Shown here one piece after another: positions 21,553 through 38,321 of a stretch of 43,808 nucleotides of DNA; position 1 is the first letter of the stretch, and every line of letters begins with the position of its first letter. The notes beneath the pieces were generated by a model that did not search any database, was not told the origin of the DNA, and saw nothing but the letters and a program-made list of their open reading frames with translations. The position numbers and the translations under genes are program-made. Location: contig CANDKY010000022.1 in NCBI GenBank assembly GCA_947385425.1, forward strand, positions 1 to 43,808. The letters are read 5' to 3'. This DNA is from an uncultured Lachnospiraceae bacterium. Its GTDB lineage: Bacteria; Bacillota; Clostridia; Lachnospirales; Lachnospiraceae.

Positions 21553-22182
21553 ATGGGAGATACAAAACGAGAGATTGAAGCAGAGTGCTTTTTACTACAG
21601 GCGGAAGATGAAGGACAAAGATATGGCAGAAACAAGGATACAGTAATAAACCATACATATATTAACAGTGGTAGTTACCGAAGAAAATTTGATTTTATTT
21701 CCGATTCGTCTGAGTTGAACCGTCTCATATTTCAACTGTCAAAAAGGATGCTGGAACATAGGTCGGGAACAAAGTTTGAAGATATGTATTGGATTGATGC
21801 GGCGCATTGGACAGTGATAGCAGAGGAAACCGAGAGCTGTTCCGAAGAGCAGATTGTATATTCAAACAGCATACGTTCCAAAATCTCAAAGTATGATAAT
21901 CTGATCACGCTGCATTCCCATCCGAATAGTTACCCGCCCAGTATCAATGATTTGAATTCTAATTTTATCAATCACTATGGTCTTGGCATTGTAGTCTGCC
22001 ATGATGGAAAAATATTTAAATATGCTTCAAATCAGGAAATACGGGAAGACTACTACAAGATGGTTGTTGAAAAATATCTGAAAAAAAGATATAATGATTA
22101 TGAAGCACAGATAGAGGCTCTTATAGAATTAGTCACGAAATTCGATATTATGGTAAAGGAGGTAACAGAGGATGGTATGTGA
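21553..22182 (+). CDS. JAB/MPN-like putative metalloprotease or structural protein
   Basis: A 209-aa soluble protein with a recognisable JAMM-like core: LITLHSHPNSYPPSINDL, giving H121, H123, S130 and D133. The usual spacing (HxHPx6Sx2D) is one residue shorter here, a variant I associate with phage-related and toxin-type JAB proteins. That association is from memory. The following IVVCHDGKIFKY is the expected beta strand pair. Catalytic activity is not assured. AAGGAG lies 12 bases upstream. The gene is AT-rich compared with both neighbours, so it was probably acquired. It overlaps the next small gene by 11 bases. Confidence 0.8.
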   Translation: MGDTKREIEAECFLLQAEDEGQRYGRNKDTVINHTYINSGSYRRKFDFISDSSELNRLIFQLSKRMLEHRSGTKFEDMYWIDAAHWTVIAEETESCSEEQIVYSNSIRSKISKYDNLITLHSHPNSYPPSINDLNSNFINHYGLGIVVCHDGKIFKYASNQEIREDYYKMVVEKYLKKRYNDYEAQIEALIELVTKFDIMVKEVTEDGM

Positions 22183-32499: not shown

Positions 32500-32536
32500 T
32501 GTGGATTTTCCGGCAGCGGGACGGGATGAAAGGTAA

Positions 32537-35500
32537 ATGGGACGGGTAAATATATGTAAGTTTGCGGCATTTGGCATTCTTTTGCTGTGCTGCGGTTTTG
32601 TAGCGGCCGGATGCGGGAATGGCAGCGATAGCAAGAGCAGCCGTACGGTTCCTGACGGCATATCGGCTGGCGGGGAGACAGGCTGTATCATCAATGGTTT
32701 GACGGTGAATTACATGGAAAATCCCATGGGCATCGAGGGCAACCCGGTATTTGGCTGGAAAATGGAGGATACTGCCAAAGGGCAGCGCCAGACGGCATAC
32801 CGGATTGTTGTGGGATCGTCCCTGCAGGCTCTGGAGGATAAGGATTACCTGTGGGATTCCGGAAGGGTGGAATCCGATATTTCTGTGGCGATCCCTTACG
32901 GGGGCGGCAGGCTCCGGCCGGAAAGCAGATACTATTGGAAAGTGTACGTGTGGGAGAAAGACGGGAAAATAGCGGAGTCTGGCGGTGAAGCCTGGTTTGA
33001 GACAGGGCTTTCGCAGGAGGGATGGAACGGGGCGGAATGGATCTGCCTCGGTGACGACGGAGTGACAGGGAGCCGGGAAGCAAAGGACGCTGCCGGGGAT
33101 ACCTCCTATAGGATTTCCTATGATATCCGGCTGAGCGCGGCTTATGCCGGCTTTATATGGGGGGCCGATGCCGGGCGGTACGGCGAATATTTCCGGTGGG
33201 CATTGGACACTACGGAAGAAAATATATTCCTTGTGATGTCACATATGGCCTATGAGACGGTATTGGAGGAAAAAAGCATTTCCCTGCAATCCTTTTTCCC
33301 GGACAGGGATGATTTCTGCGCCCGCCCGCATCATGTGCGGCTTAATGTGGACGGGAAGCAGGTGGATACTTATGTGGATGATATTCTTGTCTCACAGTAT
33401 GAAAACGCCGCGGCGAAAGAAATCGGCTCCATCGGTTTCTGGGTAGACAGAGGGGCGCAGTATGCCGGCTTTGGCAATATTTATGCAGAGGATTTTGACG
33501 GAAAGGTGTTGTATGAAGAGTCCTTTGCGGAAACTCCCCAGGAAGCCGGCAACTCGGCATTTTTCCCATATTATCTGAACATCCGTGACGGGTGGGCAAA
33601 GGTGGATTCCGGCTGGGTGATGACAGGCGGCGCGGAAAAACCGGCGCCTATGCTGCGGAAATCTTTTGATGCAAAAGAAGGGGCCGGGATCGATGAGGTG
33701 AGGCTTTATGCATCGGCCCTGGGGATATATCGTCTTTTTATCAACGGAGAGGAAATCAGCGGGGAATATTTTTCGCCCGGGCAGTCATTGTATGATACGG
33801 AAGTTTATTACAGAACCTATGATGTGACGGAATATGTGCGGGAGGGGGAAAATGTAATCGGCGCCGTTCTCGGGCATGGGCGGTATGACAGGGCAAAGTC
33901 GGATTGGGGGGACGAACTTGCTTTTTGCGCAAAACTGGCCATTGTTTATGAAGACGGCAGTACACAGGAGATTGTAACGGACGGTTCCTGGGAAAGCTGC
34001 GGGGACGGGCCTATCCGTAATGACGATTTATTTTCGGGGGAATACTATGATGCGGATTATGCGCAGGAAGGATGGGCGGAGCCTGGTTTTGCCGCCGCGG
34101 GATGGCAGAGTGCGTCTCTGTATACAGGGGTAAACGCGGATGCGGTAAAGAGGGCGGCTATGTCGGAACCGGTAAAATGCGTGGAAGAAATTCCCCCGGT
34201 TTCGGTTTCCGAGCCTTTGCCGGGTGTTTATGTCTATGATTTCGGACAGAATTTCAATGGTGTATGCAGGATTACGGTGGAAGGCAGGAAAGGGCAGGCT
34301 GTCACTTTGCGGTTTGCGGAAACCCTGAATAAGGGCAATATGTCCTGTATGGATGACGAGGAAGGGACTGTCTGGACACAGAATCTGTATACGGCCGACA
34401 ATATCGATTATTACATTCTGCGCGGAGAGGGGAGGGAAACTTATACGCCGTCTTTCGTCTGCAGAGGGTTCCGGTATGTGCAGGTGACGGGGGTGGAGGA
34501 GGCCATTCCGCCAGAGGACATATGTGGACTGGTGCTTTCCTCGGACAATAAAAGAACCGGGTGGTTTGAATGTTCCGATGAACGGGTGAACCGGCTGTAT
34601 GACAGTATCTGCTGGTCACAGATCAGCAATTTCGTTGACATTCCCATGGACTGCCCGCAAAGGGACGAACGGCTCGGGTGGATGGGTGACGCGCAGGTAT
34701 TTGCCAAAACAGCTTCCTACAATGCGGATATTTACAATTTTATGCGCAAAACAATAGATGCCCTGCGGGAAAGGCAGCATGAGAACGGCGCATATCCCGA
34801 GATTGCTTTTGGCGAAAGCCAGGAGGACGGCAGGAACGGGTGGAGCGATGCGGGCGTTATTCTTGTATGGGAAATGTATCAGCAGTATGGGGATATCGGG
34901 ATTGTGGAAGAGAATTTTGATGCAATGTGCCGGTACATGGACTATCTGGTGGAAACTAGCGACGGCTATATACGCCACGGCGAATGGTACAGTGACCACA
35001 ATGCGTTTTCCGGTTCCGATGCGGATTTATGCAATACGGCCCAATGCGCCTACGCGGCTTCCCTGCTGGCAAAGATGGCAGAGGCGGCGGGGGAGGAGGA
35101 AGCGGCGGAAAAGTATGCGGCCGTTTACGAAAATTACAGGAAAGCGTGGCAGGAAAAGTATATCCGGGAGGACGGTTCGGTTGGGAACTGGAGCCAGACG
35201 GAGTATGTGCTTGGGCTGGCATTCGGGCTGTACCCGGAAGAGTTAAGGCAGAAAGGGGCCGAGTATCTGTTAATGTCCGTGGACGCGGGAAATTACCATC
35301 CCATGACGGGCTATATTACAACGGGCTTCCTGCTTCCTGTGCTGTGCGAATACGGTTACGCGGAGGCGGCTTATAAGCTGCTGCTGCAGACCGGGTATCC
35401 GTCATGGCTGGACATGCTCTCCCACGGCGGGACGACGATCTTCGAGGGGTGGAGTACTTACTATACGGAAGAGGACGGGCTTGACAAAGTGAACGGTTCC

Positions 35501-35818
35501 TTGAACCATTATGCGCTTGGCTCTGTCGGCGCCTGGATGTATTCCGATATGCTTGGGATACGCCGGGATGAAAATAATCCGGGGTTTAAGCATTTTTATC
35601 TGGAACCCAGGACGGGGGGCGGGCTCAGTTATGCAAAAGGGCGTTATGAGAGTGTATATGGCACGATTTTAAGCGAATGGAGGATAGAGGGGGACGAGAC
35701 AGTGTTCCATTTTGTAATCCCGGCCAATACTACGGCAACGGTTTTCCTGCCGGGGTGGGAGGAAGAAGCGGAACTGAAGGCGGGGGAATATGAATACCGG
35801 GTTTTTGCGGGGAATTGA
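32537..35818 (+). CDS. alpha-L-rhamnosidase-like lipoprotein, GH78
   Basis: A 1093-aa surface lipoprotein that removes L-rhamnose from plant or bacterial glycans. The signal peptide ends in the lipobox FVAAGC (Cys26). The N-terminal module (about 45-160, NGLTVNYMENPMGIEGNPVF) is the Fn3-like rhamnosidase region. A lectin-like fold inserted at about 175-340 (YAGFIWGADAGRYGEYF and following) precedes Bac_rhamnosid_N, whose GVYVYDFGQNF (about 564-574) is typical. The (alpha/alpha)6 barrel has MDCPQRDERLGWMGDAQ (about 705-720), where the acid-base glutamate lies, plus the aromatic WSDAGVILVWEMYQQYG. The C-terminal beta domain is complete. Substrate inferred, not shown. Confidence 0.93.
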   Translation: MGRVNICKFAAFGILLLCCGFVAAGCGNGSDSKSSRTVPDGISAGGETGCIINGLTVNYMENPMGIEGNPVFGWKMEDTAKGQRQTAYRIVVGSSLQALEDKDYLWDSGRVESDISVAIPYGGGRLRPESRYYWKVYVWEKDGKIAESGGEAWFETGLSQEGWNGAEWICLGDDGVTGSREAKDAAGDTSYRISYDIRLSAAYAGFIWGADAGRYGEYFRWALDTTEENIFLVMSHMAYETVLEEKSISLQSFFPDRDDFCARPHHVRLNVDGKQVDTYVDDILVSQYENAAAKEIGSIGFWVDRGAQYAGFGNIYAEDFDGKVLYEESFAETPQEAGNSAFFPYYLNIRDGWAKVDSGWVMTGGAEKPAPMLRKSFDAKEGAGIDEVRLYASALGIYRLFINGEEISGEYFSPGQSLYDTEVYYRTYDVTEYVREGENVIGAVLGHGRYDRAKSDWGDELAFCAKLAIVYEDGSTQEIVTDGSWESCGDGPIRNDDLFSGEYYDADYAQEGWAEPGFAAAGWQSASLYTGVNADAVKRAAMSEPVKCVEEIPPVSVSEPLPGVYVYDFGQNFNGVCRITVEGRKGQAVTLRFAETLNKGNMSCMDDEEGTVWTQNLYTADNIDYYILRGEGRETYTPSFVCRGFRYVQVTGVEEAIPPEDICGLVLSSDNKRTGWFECSDERVNRLYDSICWSQISNFVDIPMDCPQRDERLGWMGDAQVFAKTASYNADIYNFMRKTIDALRERQHENGAYPEIAFGESQEDGRNGWSDAGVILVWEMYQQYGDIGIVEENFDAMCRYMDYLVETSDGYIRHGEWYSDHNAFSGSDADLCNTAQCAYAASLLAKMAEAAGEEEAAEKYAAVYENYRKAWQEKYIREDGSVGNWSQTEYVLGLAFGLYPEELRQKGAEYLLMSVDAGNYHPMTGYITTGFLLPVLCEYGYAEAAYKLLLQTGYPSWLDMLSHGGTTIFEGWSTYYTEEDGLDKVNGSLNHYALGSVGAWMYSDMLGIRRDENNPGFKHFYLEPRTGGGLSYAKGRYESVYGTILSEWRIEGDETVFHFVIPANTTATVFLPGWEEEAELKAGEYEYRVFAGN

Positions 35819-35886
35819 GCCGGAGGTTTGCGGGACGGGATGCGAATCCGAAAAGGTATGTTTGGAGGAGGATGCGGGGGTATAAA

Positions 35887-37233
35887 ATGCAAAAAATATA
35901 TATTAGAAACAATGGACCAGTAAAGAATTTTGAGATGGAGGTTGAGAAATTCAATCTATTAATTGGAGAGCAGGCAACAGGAAAAAGTACTATTGCCAAA
36001 AGTGTTTATTATTTTAAAACTATTAAAACCCAAATTATTGATTATCTGACCCAAGTGTATGATTCCAATTCCTATAACAGTGTACCGCAGGAGAAAGTAT
36101 GGTTTGATAAAGCTATTAAATCTGAACTGAAAAATATTTTTATTAAGTTGTTTGGATATAGCTGGGATTTAAATCCTGAATTCTATATGAAATATGATTA
36201 TGCCGAAGACGTCTGGATACAGGTACAATTAAAAAGAGGGGATAAAAACAAGCAATATATAAGCGTAACCTATTCGCCGGAGTTGTTGAATTCAATTAAA
36301 AGGCTTCAACTGGAAATACGGGAGATGTATCATAGCAACGAGGGGGTAATTAAAACCAGTCTTTTGCTTACAAATGAAGAAAGAAAAAGAAATCATGAAA
36401 CAATAGCCTGTAAAGTTAATGCGATTTTTTTTGATAATAAGGAAACTTATTATATTCCCGCGGGGAGAAGCCTCCTGACAGTAATGTCAAATAACCGTGC
36501 GATAATGAATAATGCAGGTAATCTGGATCTGATAACGGAAATGTTTATGATGCTGATTGATAATGTCCGCAATAGTTTTGGGAATGGCGTGCGGAAAGCA
36601 CATCTTTTTTATCCTGTAGAAAAGAGACAGTTTGATATTAAAAACATTGCGGATTTTATTATAAACATTGAAAAAGGAGAGTATTTTTACAATGGAGGGA
36701 GAGAATTTCTAAAAATAGCAGAAGATACAGAACACCCGGTCGCAATTAATTTTGCATCATCAGGGCAACAGGAAATTTTGTGGCTTTTGAATTTTATGTA
36801 TGTTTTAATGTTGCGGGAAGAAGATGCATTTCTGATCATTGAAGAACCGGAAGCGCATATTTATCCTTTGCTTCAGAAAAAAGTAATGGAGTTTATTGCT
36901 TTTTTTACCAATATGCAGGATAGCGGTGTTTTTATCACAACACATAGCCCTTATATTCTTACCGTTGCAAATAATTTATATTATGCAGGTGTATTAGCAG
37001 AAAGTGGGCAGGCTAAAGAAGTTTATAAAGTTTTGAATAAAAGTTATATAATAAAAAAAGGAGAACTTTCAGCGTATAAGCTGCTTGCAAATAATGTATC
37101 TGAAGAACGTCATTATATTAAATTGTTGGATGAAGAGGAAAAGGAAATAGAATCAGGTTTAATTGATGATGTGTCGATGCAGGTAAATGAGTTATATACG
37201 GCATTGTATGGTATTGAACTGGATAAAGAGTAG
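35887..37233 (+). CDS. OLD/RecF-like AAA ATPase (AAA_15/AAA_21 type)
   Basis: A 448-aa ABC-fold ATPase of the OLD/RecF group. Walker A GEQATGKST (about residues 27-35), signature-like ASSGQQEIL (about 288-296), Walker B AFLIIEEPEAH (about 313-323) and the H-loop ITTHSPYIL (about 350-358). No Toprim domain follows, so it is the single-ATPase form. It pairs with the nuclease-like gene 10 bases downstream. The start is the ATG at 35887, after GGGGG; an ATG at 35872 lies too near GGAGGAGG. The gene is strongly AT-rich compared with the GH78 gene before it and was probably acquired. Many such ATPases belong to phage-defence systems. Confidence 0.85.
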   Translation: MQKIYIRNNGPVKNFEMEVEKFNLLIGEQATGKSTIAKSVYYFKTIKTQIIDYLTQVYDSNSYNSVPQEKVWFDKAIKSELKNIFIKLFGYSWDLNPEFYMKYDYAEDVWIQVQLKRGDKNKQYISVTYSPELLNSIKRLQLEIREMYHSNEGVIKTSLLLTNEERKRNHETIACKVNAIFFDNKETYYIPAGRSLLTVMSNNRAIMNNAGNLDLITEMFMMLIDNVRNSFGNGVRKAHLFYPVEKRQFDIKNIADFIINIEKGEYFYNGGREFLKIAEDTEHPVAINFASSGQQEILWLLNFMYVLMLREEDAFLIIEEPEAHIYPLLQKKVMEFIAFFTNMQDSGVFITTHSPYILTVANNLYYAGVLAESGQAKEVYKVLNKSYIIKKGELSAYKLLANNVSEERHYIKLLDEEEKEIESGLIDDVSMQVNELYTALYGIELDKE

Positions 37234-37243
37234 GAATTAAAAT

Positions 37244-37900
37244 ATGGCAAAAAACAAAGGGCAGAGGGAACCATTTATTACTAACTGGGTAGAGGGGCAA
37301 AAGTGTGTGATTGATGATACACAGCATCAGAGTAAAGCATTAGTGCCTATACAGATTGATGCAGGGAATTCAGTTGAAATTGTGCAGGTAGATGGCGGCT
37401 TAATTACAGGATTACCTGAAGGCGAGGTTATATGTGACAATCTGGTATATACAATAAAAGATAACAGTATGGGATTGAATATCACATGGATTATAGAACT
37501 GAAAGGGACGAAAAATCCTAAAGAAGCAAAACATTCCATAAAGCAGATTATAAGCAGTATACAATATTTTCAAGACCAAGCGGCATATCCACAAGCACTC
37601 AAATATGTTGATAACAGGGATTATGTATTTGCCGCCATTGCGGGAGCGCCTGATAAAACACTTCCAATAATGAATAATGCTGATATAAAAGTGCTTTGTC
37701 AAAAGTTGATGACGATTAGCGTTAAAAGAAAATGTGTGAAAGATATGTTTATGCTTTTTTGCTATATAAGACCTAATATTCAATGTAAAAAAGTAGAAAT
37801 AAGGGGAAGCAAACCACCATATAATATTTATTGCTATAAAAACCGGGATGGGTACATACCGTATCCTTCCATGCTGATGCGGTTATTGGAAGGGAGATAA
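37244..37900 (+). CDS. putative PD-(D/E)xK-fold partner of the ATPase
   Basis: A 218-aa soluble protein that I do not recognise as a named family. Residues 61-90 read EVICDNLVYTIKDNSMGLNI followed by TWIIELKGTK: D65, then E85-x-K87 at the end of a beta strand, then a helix with H97 and Q107. This is the arrangement of a PD-(D/E)xK nuclease core. The rest is mixed, with two cysteines near the centre and a Tyr-rich end. It follows the ATPase after 10 bases and shares its AT-rich composition, so the two are one unit. Nuclease activity is inference. Confidence 0.75.
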   Translation: MAKNKGQREPFITNWVEGQKCVIDDTQHQSKALVPIQIDAGNSVEIVQVDGGLITGLPEGEVICDNLVYTIKDNSMGLNITWIIELKGTKNPKEAKHSIKQIISSIQYFQDQAAYPQALKYVDNRDYVFAAIAGAPDKTLPIMNNADIKVLCQKLMTISVKRKCVKDMFMLFCYIRPNIQCKKVEIRGSKPPYNIYCYKNRDGYIPYPSMLMRLLEGR

Positions 37901-37938
37901 AAATATAAAAAGCCTGTTGGGTTTACGCAGGAGGAAGT

Positions 37939-38215
37939 GAAAATCTTTCCACCTGTGCGGTTGGCGCCCTGTCCCCTCCCGGTGGCCTCTGGCTGCGCTG
38001 GAGAAGGAAAATCCAACTGCAAAAATGAGATATTTCTAACGGTTTTTCCGGATAGATTTGCTGCCAGGCGGTGACTCTGCCAAAAACGGCAGCAAATCTA
38101 TCCAGAAAAGCCGTAAGAAATCTCATCATTTTTTTGAATGGATTTTCCTTCTCCAGCGCAGCCAGAGGCCACCGGGAGGGGACAGGGCGCCAACCGCACA
38201 GGTGGAAAGATTTTC
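37939..38215. repeat. 277-bp near-perfect palindrome
   Basis: Arms 37939-38065 and 38088-38215 are inverted copies of about 127 bases with few mismatches, around a 22-base loop (38066-38087). The mismatches are clustered around 38014-38030 and 38116-38132 (a few inserted bases) and a few singles near 38037-38049. No open frame fits it. It separates the ATPase/nuclease pair from pepP. Such a structure would form a very stable hairpin in RNA or a cruciform in DNA. Possibly a decayed MITE; the flanks show no obvious target duplication. Confidence 0.85.
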
Positions 38216-38321
38216 AATCTGACTGTGCTGATAACAGAAAATACGTAACCGGAAAAATTTGAATGGCAGTGGCATATTCAAATATGAGAAAGTTGGAACT
38301 GGACTGGAATAGGAGAAGAAA

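Follow-up and report, generated by a model that had tools for sequence, protein, structure and literature searches.

A two-gene ATPase and putative nuclease locus in a Lachnospiraceae genome, probably a divergent WonAB-like pair

Described pairs of an ABC ATPase and a nuclease

WonAB, from the WASA-1 prophage of V. cholerae, is a two-gene operon that encodes an ABC ATPase and a PD-(D/E)xK-variant nuclease. WonA and WonB carry the accessions AWB73975.1 and AWB73976.1 (PMC12137116). According to the accessible text of its description, the system acts by abortive infection and needs both genes, the ATPase residues K34, R182, E300 and H333, and K71 of WonB. When overproduced, WonB is toxic, arrests growth and inhibits translation, and it leaves genomic DNA undegraded (PMC12137116). 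The same text presents WonAB as close kin of the 'OLD-ABC ATPase + Novel REase' operon and as similar to PD-T4-4, and its authors propose that a larger family, still uncharacterised, exists. The operon type, which comes from the survey by Krishnan et al., is given there for 0.96% of bacterial genomes, a figure that includes all detected WonAB homologues (PMC12137116). These homologues occur in various, mainly Gram-negative bacteria, as stated in the accessible text of two sources (PMC12137116, PMC12409358).

PD-T4-4 itself is tabulated in the accessible part of one article with PF13175 (AAA_15) and a PD(D/E)XK domain (PMC10952713), and that of another, which places it on an ICE-like element, includes it in the defence systems identified by selection (PMC9519451). 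PADLOC also holds a candidate called PDC-M29, where 'PDC' stands for 'phage defence candidate' in the part of the source available (PMC11514479). In the literature found, no paper names PDC-M29, and nothing joins PD-T4-4, phage defence and Lachnospiraceae. The gene pair reported here had been called undescribed in a preliminary description made from the DNA alone. That term is too strong, since the layout is known as WonAB, 'OLD-ABC ATPase + Novel REase', PD-T4-4 and PDC-M29.

The gene pair and its genomic setting

The window, that is, the whole stretch of 43,808 nucleotides analysed from an uncultured Lachnospiraceae bacterium, carries the pair on its forward strand. Gene A (35887..37233) encodes an OLD-type ABC ATPase of 448 aa, assigned from Pfam and PADLOC matches and from residues kept in 19 of 19 relatives, and gene B (37244..37900) encodes a PD-(D/E)xK-like putative nuclease effector of 218 aa, assigned from its residues, a profile and a weak PDC-M29B match. 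The earlier observation of an ATPase and a nuclease-like partner is confirmed as real, and both open reading frames were found with the 10-base gap first reported. The ATG at 35887 is common to all six close pairs. It is adjoined by a leader on the same strand with a possible ribosome-binding site (35865..35886), where DNA similarity to the other pairs ends, as judged from blastn limits and flank comparison.

The base composition of the two genes is foreign to their surroundings, as had also been remarked for thrC, GH78 and pepP. GC content is 33.0% in A and 36.4% in B, against 53.2% in GH78 and 49.8% in both thrC and pepP, and GC3 is 30–32% in the pair and 56–62% in six other genes for which it was computed. 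Together, A and B have 34.0% GC compared with 47.3% for the window, and they fall among the lowest 0.04% of all its 2014-base stretches. The other five close pairs likewise have 31–37% GC inside fetched stretches of 38–51%. Comparisons of the window genes with their relatives gave dN/dS of 0.05–0.14 in the eight cases that yielded a ratio, four of which are rough because dS is near 2; two comparisons of A were saturated. Between two of the other close pairs (L002 and L003), the ratio is 0.04 for A and 0.08 for B. Judged from these ratios, both genes are under purifying selection.

Two other features of the window were observed. Directly 3′ of B, at 37938–38216, lies a nearly perfect palindrome of about 280 bp, with arms of 91 nt (95% complementary) and 37 nt (89% complementary). 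It is an interspersed repeat with 83 matches in its own genome, both strands counted. Several contigs carry nearly complete copies with identities of up to 94%, and the element resembles a MITE-type or palindromic repeat. A second AT-rich islet, at 21553–22182, holds a 209-aa ORF with the stretch HSHPNSYPPS...D, which we take to resemble a JAB/MPN metalloprotease motif; Pfam gives only a weak CAT match.

Close relatives of B are few. A search of genome_contigs gave two loci (L002, L003) among 30 pattern matches. In genome sets of known rank, B was found in 1 of 61 relative genomes, which is the window itself, in none of the 15 other genomes of the genus, in 4 of 397 family genomes with the window's own included, and in 1 of 398 phylum genomes, which once more is its own. 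No close relatives of B were seen in plasmids, phages or viral contigs, nor in scans of viral contigs with A2, the B of L043 and A3. In 249 phylum genomes, PDC-M29B as query gave two weak matches, neither of them the window pair, and the window-type profile (A1) gave three weak matches besides the window (L013–L015).

At all five other close loci (L002, L003, L007, L008 and L009), A and B stand in the same order; the five B proteins are 87, 83, 71, 67 and 59% identical to that of the window, and the five A proteins 92, 92, 73, 79 and 72%. The gene neighbourhoods of the six pairs differ, with gene kinds mostly read by eye. For instance, the window pair lies beside GH78 and pepP, that of L002 beside a 338-aa ORF without a Pfam match and a zinc-finger-like gene, that of L003 beside CapA-like and GntR-like genes, and that of L008 beside glycosyltransferase-like and thioesterase-like genes, while a LysM-like protein is encoded upstream of the L009 pair. 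No clear defence island was seen among these neighbours as read by eye, yet the gene next to the L007 pair on its upstream side matches PDDEXK_9 above the Pfam cut-off. Proteins of this kind (PF08011) are abundant in some of the genomes, with 41 matches in the window's own (G000), 37 in G150 and none in 14 control genomes.

The limits of the shared DNA were compared by blastn, with the window pair and 1.5 kb of flanking sequence at either end as query. One match was obtained in each of the five other loci. Its start lies no more than 10 bases upstream of the start codon of A, and its end falls in the range from 24 bases short of the B stop codon to 16 bases past it. In the 100-base flanks, a leader is common to L002 and L003 (0 of 200 shuffles scored as high), and L002 and L009 match downstream of the pair (3 of 200 shuffles); the other 28 of 30 comparisons were unremarkable, with 19 or more of 200 shuffles. 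Synonymous differences between the window and the other close pairs amount to 40–77%, and the boundary of the pair is suggestive, not proven, because neutral divergence could hide flanking homology.

The chromosomal site was compared in six relatives of the genus, which were fetched out of 15 other genomes that matched pepP. All six lack GH78, A and B, and their thrC and pepP genes lie close together. In one of them (G009, L096), 445 bp separate thrC and pepP, with a short ORF seen by eye but no ORF that reaches 120 codons, so that the stretch with the GH78 gene, the pair and the palindromic repeat (32500..38321, unstranded) is missing there. The other five have a gene of 455 to 481 aa between thrC and pepP, citrate-synthase-like by eye, and some of them have further ORFs there. 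A single fixed chromosomal place for the pair, a prospect raised in the preliminary description, is excluded: the close pairs are scattered and lie in different places. The pair is apparently a horizontally moved two-gene cassette with a scattered distribution.

Conserved residues and distant relatives

The ATPase motifs are readily seen in A, with names given by analogy: a Walker A sequence GEQATGKS (K33), YIPAGRS (R194), a signature-like SSGQQE (291–296), a Walker B sequence LIIEEPE (E319/E320) and an H-loop TTHSPY (H353), followed by 95 aa beyond that histidine. K33, R194, S291, S292, G293, Q295, E319, E320 and H353 are identical in 19 of 19 aligned relatives. A matches Pfam AAA_15 at 2.1e-21 (residues 2–357) and AAA_21 at 1.1e-15, in addition to weak SMC_N and RecF matches. 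Its original placement in the OLD/RecF group is borne out by the Pfam matches and the conserved residues. Among PADLOC models, AriA comes first (1.3e-24, residues 1–358) and scores higher than PD-T4-4_A, which is matched nearly over its full length (9.5e-18, residues 3–434), and PDC-M29A follows at 1.3e-17; the 25 matches listed of 97 are all to ATPase models or ATPase-domain stretches. A profile search of PDB sequences gave no match of A at 0.001.

By the published residue numbers, K33, R194, E320 and H353 are the equivalents of K34, R182, E300 and H333 of WonA. The spacing of 33 between E320 and H353 equals that of E300–H333 in WonA. It is found in 10 of 19 family members, one member being missed by the pattern; the match is weak support, because the spacing varies from 32 to 39 across the family.

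The pattern D...ExK followed by a helix glutamine is usual in PD-(D/E)xK enzymes. In B, the D65 and E85-x-K87 first pointed out are indeed present, and D50, D65, E85, L86, K87, G88 and Q101 are identical in 19 of 19 aligned members, with G51 in 18; the nuclease-like pattern is preserved in distant relatives. Database matches of B are weak, the best being 0.077 in Pfam, 0.014 in PADLOC (PDC-M29B) and 0.075 in NCBIfam. PHROGs gave no match, and no Pfam family, the PD-(D/E)xK superfamily included, passed its curated cut-off for the window B. PDC-M29B, a model without a curated cut-off, is weakly matched by all six window-type B proteins (best 0.0057), and PDDEXK_9 by 4 of 17 members (best 0.0093). 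Toprim, DUF4435 and HNH, which had been thought absent from the partner, gave no match to B at E ≤ 1.

Distant relatives of the ATPase were also found. Some match was present in 17 of 61 genomes, and full-length homologues, 34–35% identical, occur in 3 of 15 other genomes of the genus, each with a 177-aa partner directly downstream. An ATPase with a partner of 140–212 aa was also found in a gut phage record (L043), in G115, G150 and G210 (L048–L050), on two Bacteroidales plasmids (L051, L052) and on four IMG/VR viral contigs (L053–L056). One of these genomes, G150, carries two family members, one of the window type on C107 (L007) and one of the short-B type on C9 (L049). On one IMG/VR contig (L053, 5001–6708), the pair lies between ORFs that by eye are phage portal-like and scaffold/coat-like. 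On a Bacteroides finegoldii plasmid (L051, 2212–3916), a PDC-M29-like pair lies amid glycosyltransferase and O-antigen ligase genes, and its ATPase matches PDC-M29A at 5.3e-53. Three plasmid records matched by the window A have an identical partner in common; PADLOC identifies one of them, E. albertii H1, as PD-T4-4 (A 7.8e-261, B 6.1e-108), and the E. albertii ATPase is 23% identical to the window A. In the window's own genome (G000:C64; L042, 2769–5040), a DUF262-like ORF, so read by eye, has a gene for a 368-aa ATPase immediately downstream, and the two may be another defence pair.

The family was aligned as 19 pairs, namely six of the window type and 13 others, which are distant partners of homologous ATPases; three of the 13 (L039–L041) are near-identical, and PD-T4-4_B was left out. 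The B start codons in L053 and L055 were picked by hand, and some comparisons ran the L055 B from three codons upstream of its ATG. A profile of the 13 other partners places the six window-type B proteins at ranks 1 to 6 (E 4.4e-6 to 2.8e-4) in a set with 942 decoy ORFs and six reversed sequences. The decoys were ORFs of the fetched loci, some of them repeated where loci overlap. The best decoy (E 0.18) has PF08011 PDDEXK_9 over its cut-off at the ORF end and aligned on the same D/ELK/Q. The reverse profile, built from the six window-type proteins, performed weakly: the best true relative (E 0.036) came behind L013 (2.2e-5) and L014 (0.0026), which sat among the decoys although they were earlier matches of A1. 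The L013 match starts at profile position 86, without D50, D65 and E85, and the protein, to our reading, is presumably a peptidase; it is for these reasons taken as a chance match. L014 is likewise regarded as chance.

When the six window-type proteins were compared with four others by HHalign, E was 6.8e-4, yet the probability reached only 27%. Distances in A and B are correlated (r 0.94 for 19 pairs and 0.82 when thinned to 13), and 0 of 9999 permutations were as high in each case. A strict regular expression fits 10 of 19 members and 0 of 942 decoys. A loose D..[DE]xK..Q pattern is present in 36 of 299 decoys of 140–250 aa, so the motif proves nothing by itself.

Structure prediction for B was of low confidence. 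AlphaFold2 gave mean pLDDT values of 39.2 (3 rows) and 39.4 (7 rows), and both models are poor; strands appear in them next to D65 and at E85, with Q101 on a helix, which at such confidence is not evidence. With the second model as query, Foldseek reported 855 matches at E ≤ 10 and none at E ≤ 0.001, and the 50 listed of these 855 include, by title, no PD-(D/E)xK chain. Profile searches of PDB sequences gave chance-like matches only, with a best E of 0.0034 (fatty acid synthase dehydratase), and 0.062 in another run. The predicted models do not confirm a PD-(D/E)xK fold.

Possible mode of action and comparison with known systems

The pair is probably a divergent Lachnospiraceae variant of the WonAB-like abortive-infection kind, in which A would control the PD-(D/E)xK nuclease B. 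It is regarded as divergent because the window B is 15–24% identical to the B proteins of other groups in the alignment of 19 pairs and has an extra conserved C-terminal part (about residues 145–218), without counterpart in the distant partners as aligned. We infer a defence function mainly from WonAB. By this analogy, A likely senses infection and controls B, and B likely cuts nucleic acid and stops growth. In such a scheme, A would dimerise through its ATP sites and would hold or stabilise B, probably on the C-terminal extension of A. An infection signal would alter the state of the ATPase, by which B would be freed or activated and could cut nucleic acid, be it DNA, tRNA or rRNA, with D65/E85/K87. 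Growth of the infected cell would then stop, as in abortive infection. It is conceivable, though rather doubtful, that the Lachnospiraceae pairs are a subtype of their own, with a new specificity for substrate or trigger conferred by the conserved C-terminal part of B and with a moving unit that consists of just the two ORFs and lacks a shared promoter, terminator or mobility gene; such a unit would consequently rely on transcription where it lands.

PD-(D/E)xK enzymes are mostly DNases, which counts for direct restriction of the PD-T4-4 kind, where B would cut invading phage DNA and the cell would survive. The nearly full-length match of A to PD-T4-4_A and the tabulated AAA_15 and PD-(D/E)xK domains of that system (PMC10952713) point the same way. 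Restriction is nevertheless unlikely, as neither a methylase nor any other gene for self-marking belongs to the unit, the window B has no PD-T4-4_B match at E ≤ 1, a search in which HMMER filters drop most weak matches, and genomic DNA is not degraded on overproduction of WonB, from the best-studied relative, according to the accessible text (PMC12137116). An addiction pair similar to a toxin-antitoxin, with B as toxic nuclease, A as its neutraliser and no special anti-phage role, would suit a compact, mobile, two-gene unit and the toxicity of WonB alone (PMC12137116). This appears improbable, since A is a complete ABC ATPase, the catalytic residues of which are kept under apparent purifying selection, and the accessible WonAB text begins to argue against an addiction reading (PMC12137116). 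A chromosomal repair or maintenance pair (RecF/SbcC-like) without a defence role is very improbable even though A belongs to the RecF/OLD group, given a close B in so few family genomes and none of the others of the genus, and a genomic place that is not conserved, and a housekeeping role of this kind is rejected on the scattered distribution and foreign composition.

If the pair is a WonAB-like variant, a recently recognised kind of abortive infection, with an ATPase sensor and a nuclease, would gain a Lachnospiraceae branch, the partner gene of which is matched weakly by the PADLOC 2023 models. The signature DG...D...ELKG...Q, from nineteen aligned pairs, is usable to find more members, and the natural pairs lend themselves to experiments on the signal sensed by the ATPase and on the target of the nuclease.

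Among the systems compared, PARIS is rejected, for A has AriA as its top match but B has no AriB match at E ≤ 1. Gabija, Septu, AbiL and OLD class 1 are defined by partners with a Toprim domain, a UvrD helicase, HNH or AbiLii, and are rejected because B matches none of these partners. The locus resembles PD-T4-4 in that an AAA_15 ATPase, matching PD-T4-4_A almost over its full length, adjoins a PD-(D/E)xK-like protein. Formal membership is rejected on the lack of a PD-T4-4_B match at E ≤ 1, and that model is also absent from the families listed for the six window-type B proteins at E ≤ 10. PDC-M29, the PADLOC candidate, is matched by A and only weakly by B, and B exceeds the 164-position PDC-M29B model in length; the pair may belong to it. 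The 'OLD-ABC ATPase + Novel REase' operon has the same layout, as compared here by its description; its reference pair is from Anaerovibrio (SHI83489.1, SHI83462.1; PMC12137116). Unlike WonAB, the window pair has a spacing of 161 between K33 and R194, against 148 in WonA by published residue numbers, and a B of 218 aa with a conserved C-terminal part, likened to WonB by description and residue numbers alone. Like WonAB, it is a two-gene unit on an apparently mobile element, with an OLD-type ABC ATPase that has the Walker A lysine, the arginine, the Walker B glutamate and the histidine, and with a partner that has a PD-(D/E)xK active-site pattern.
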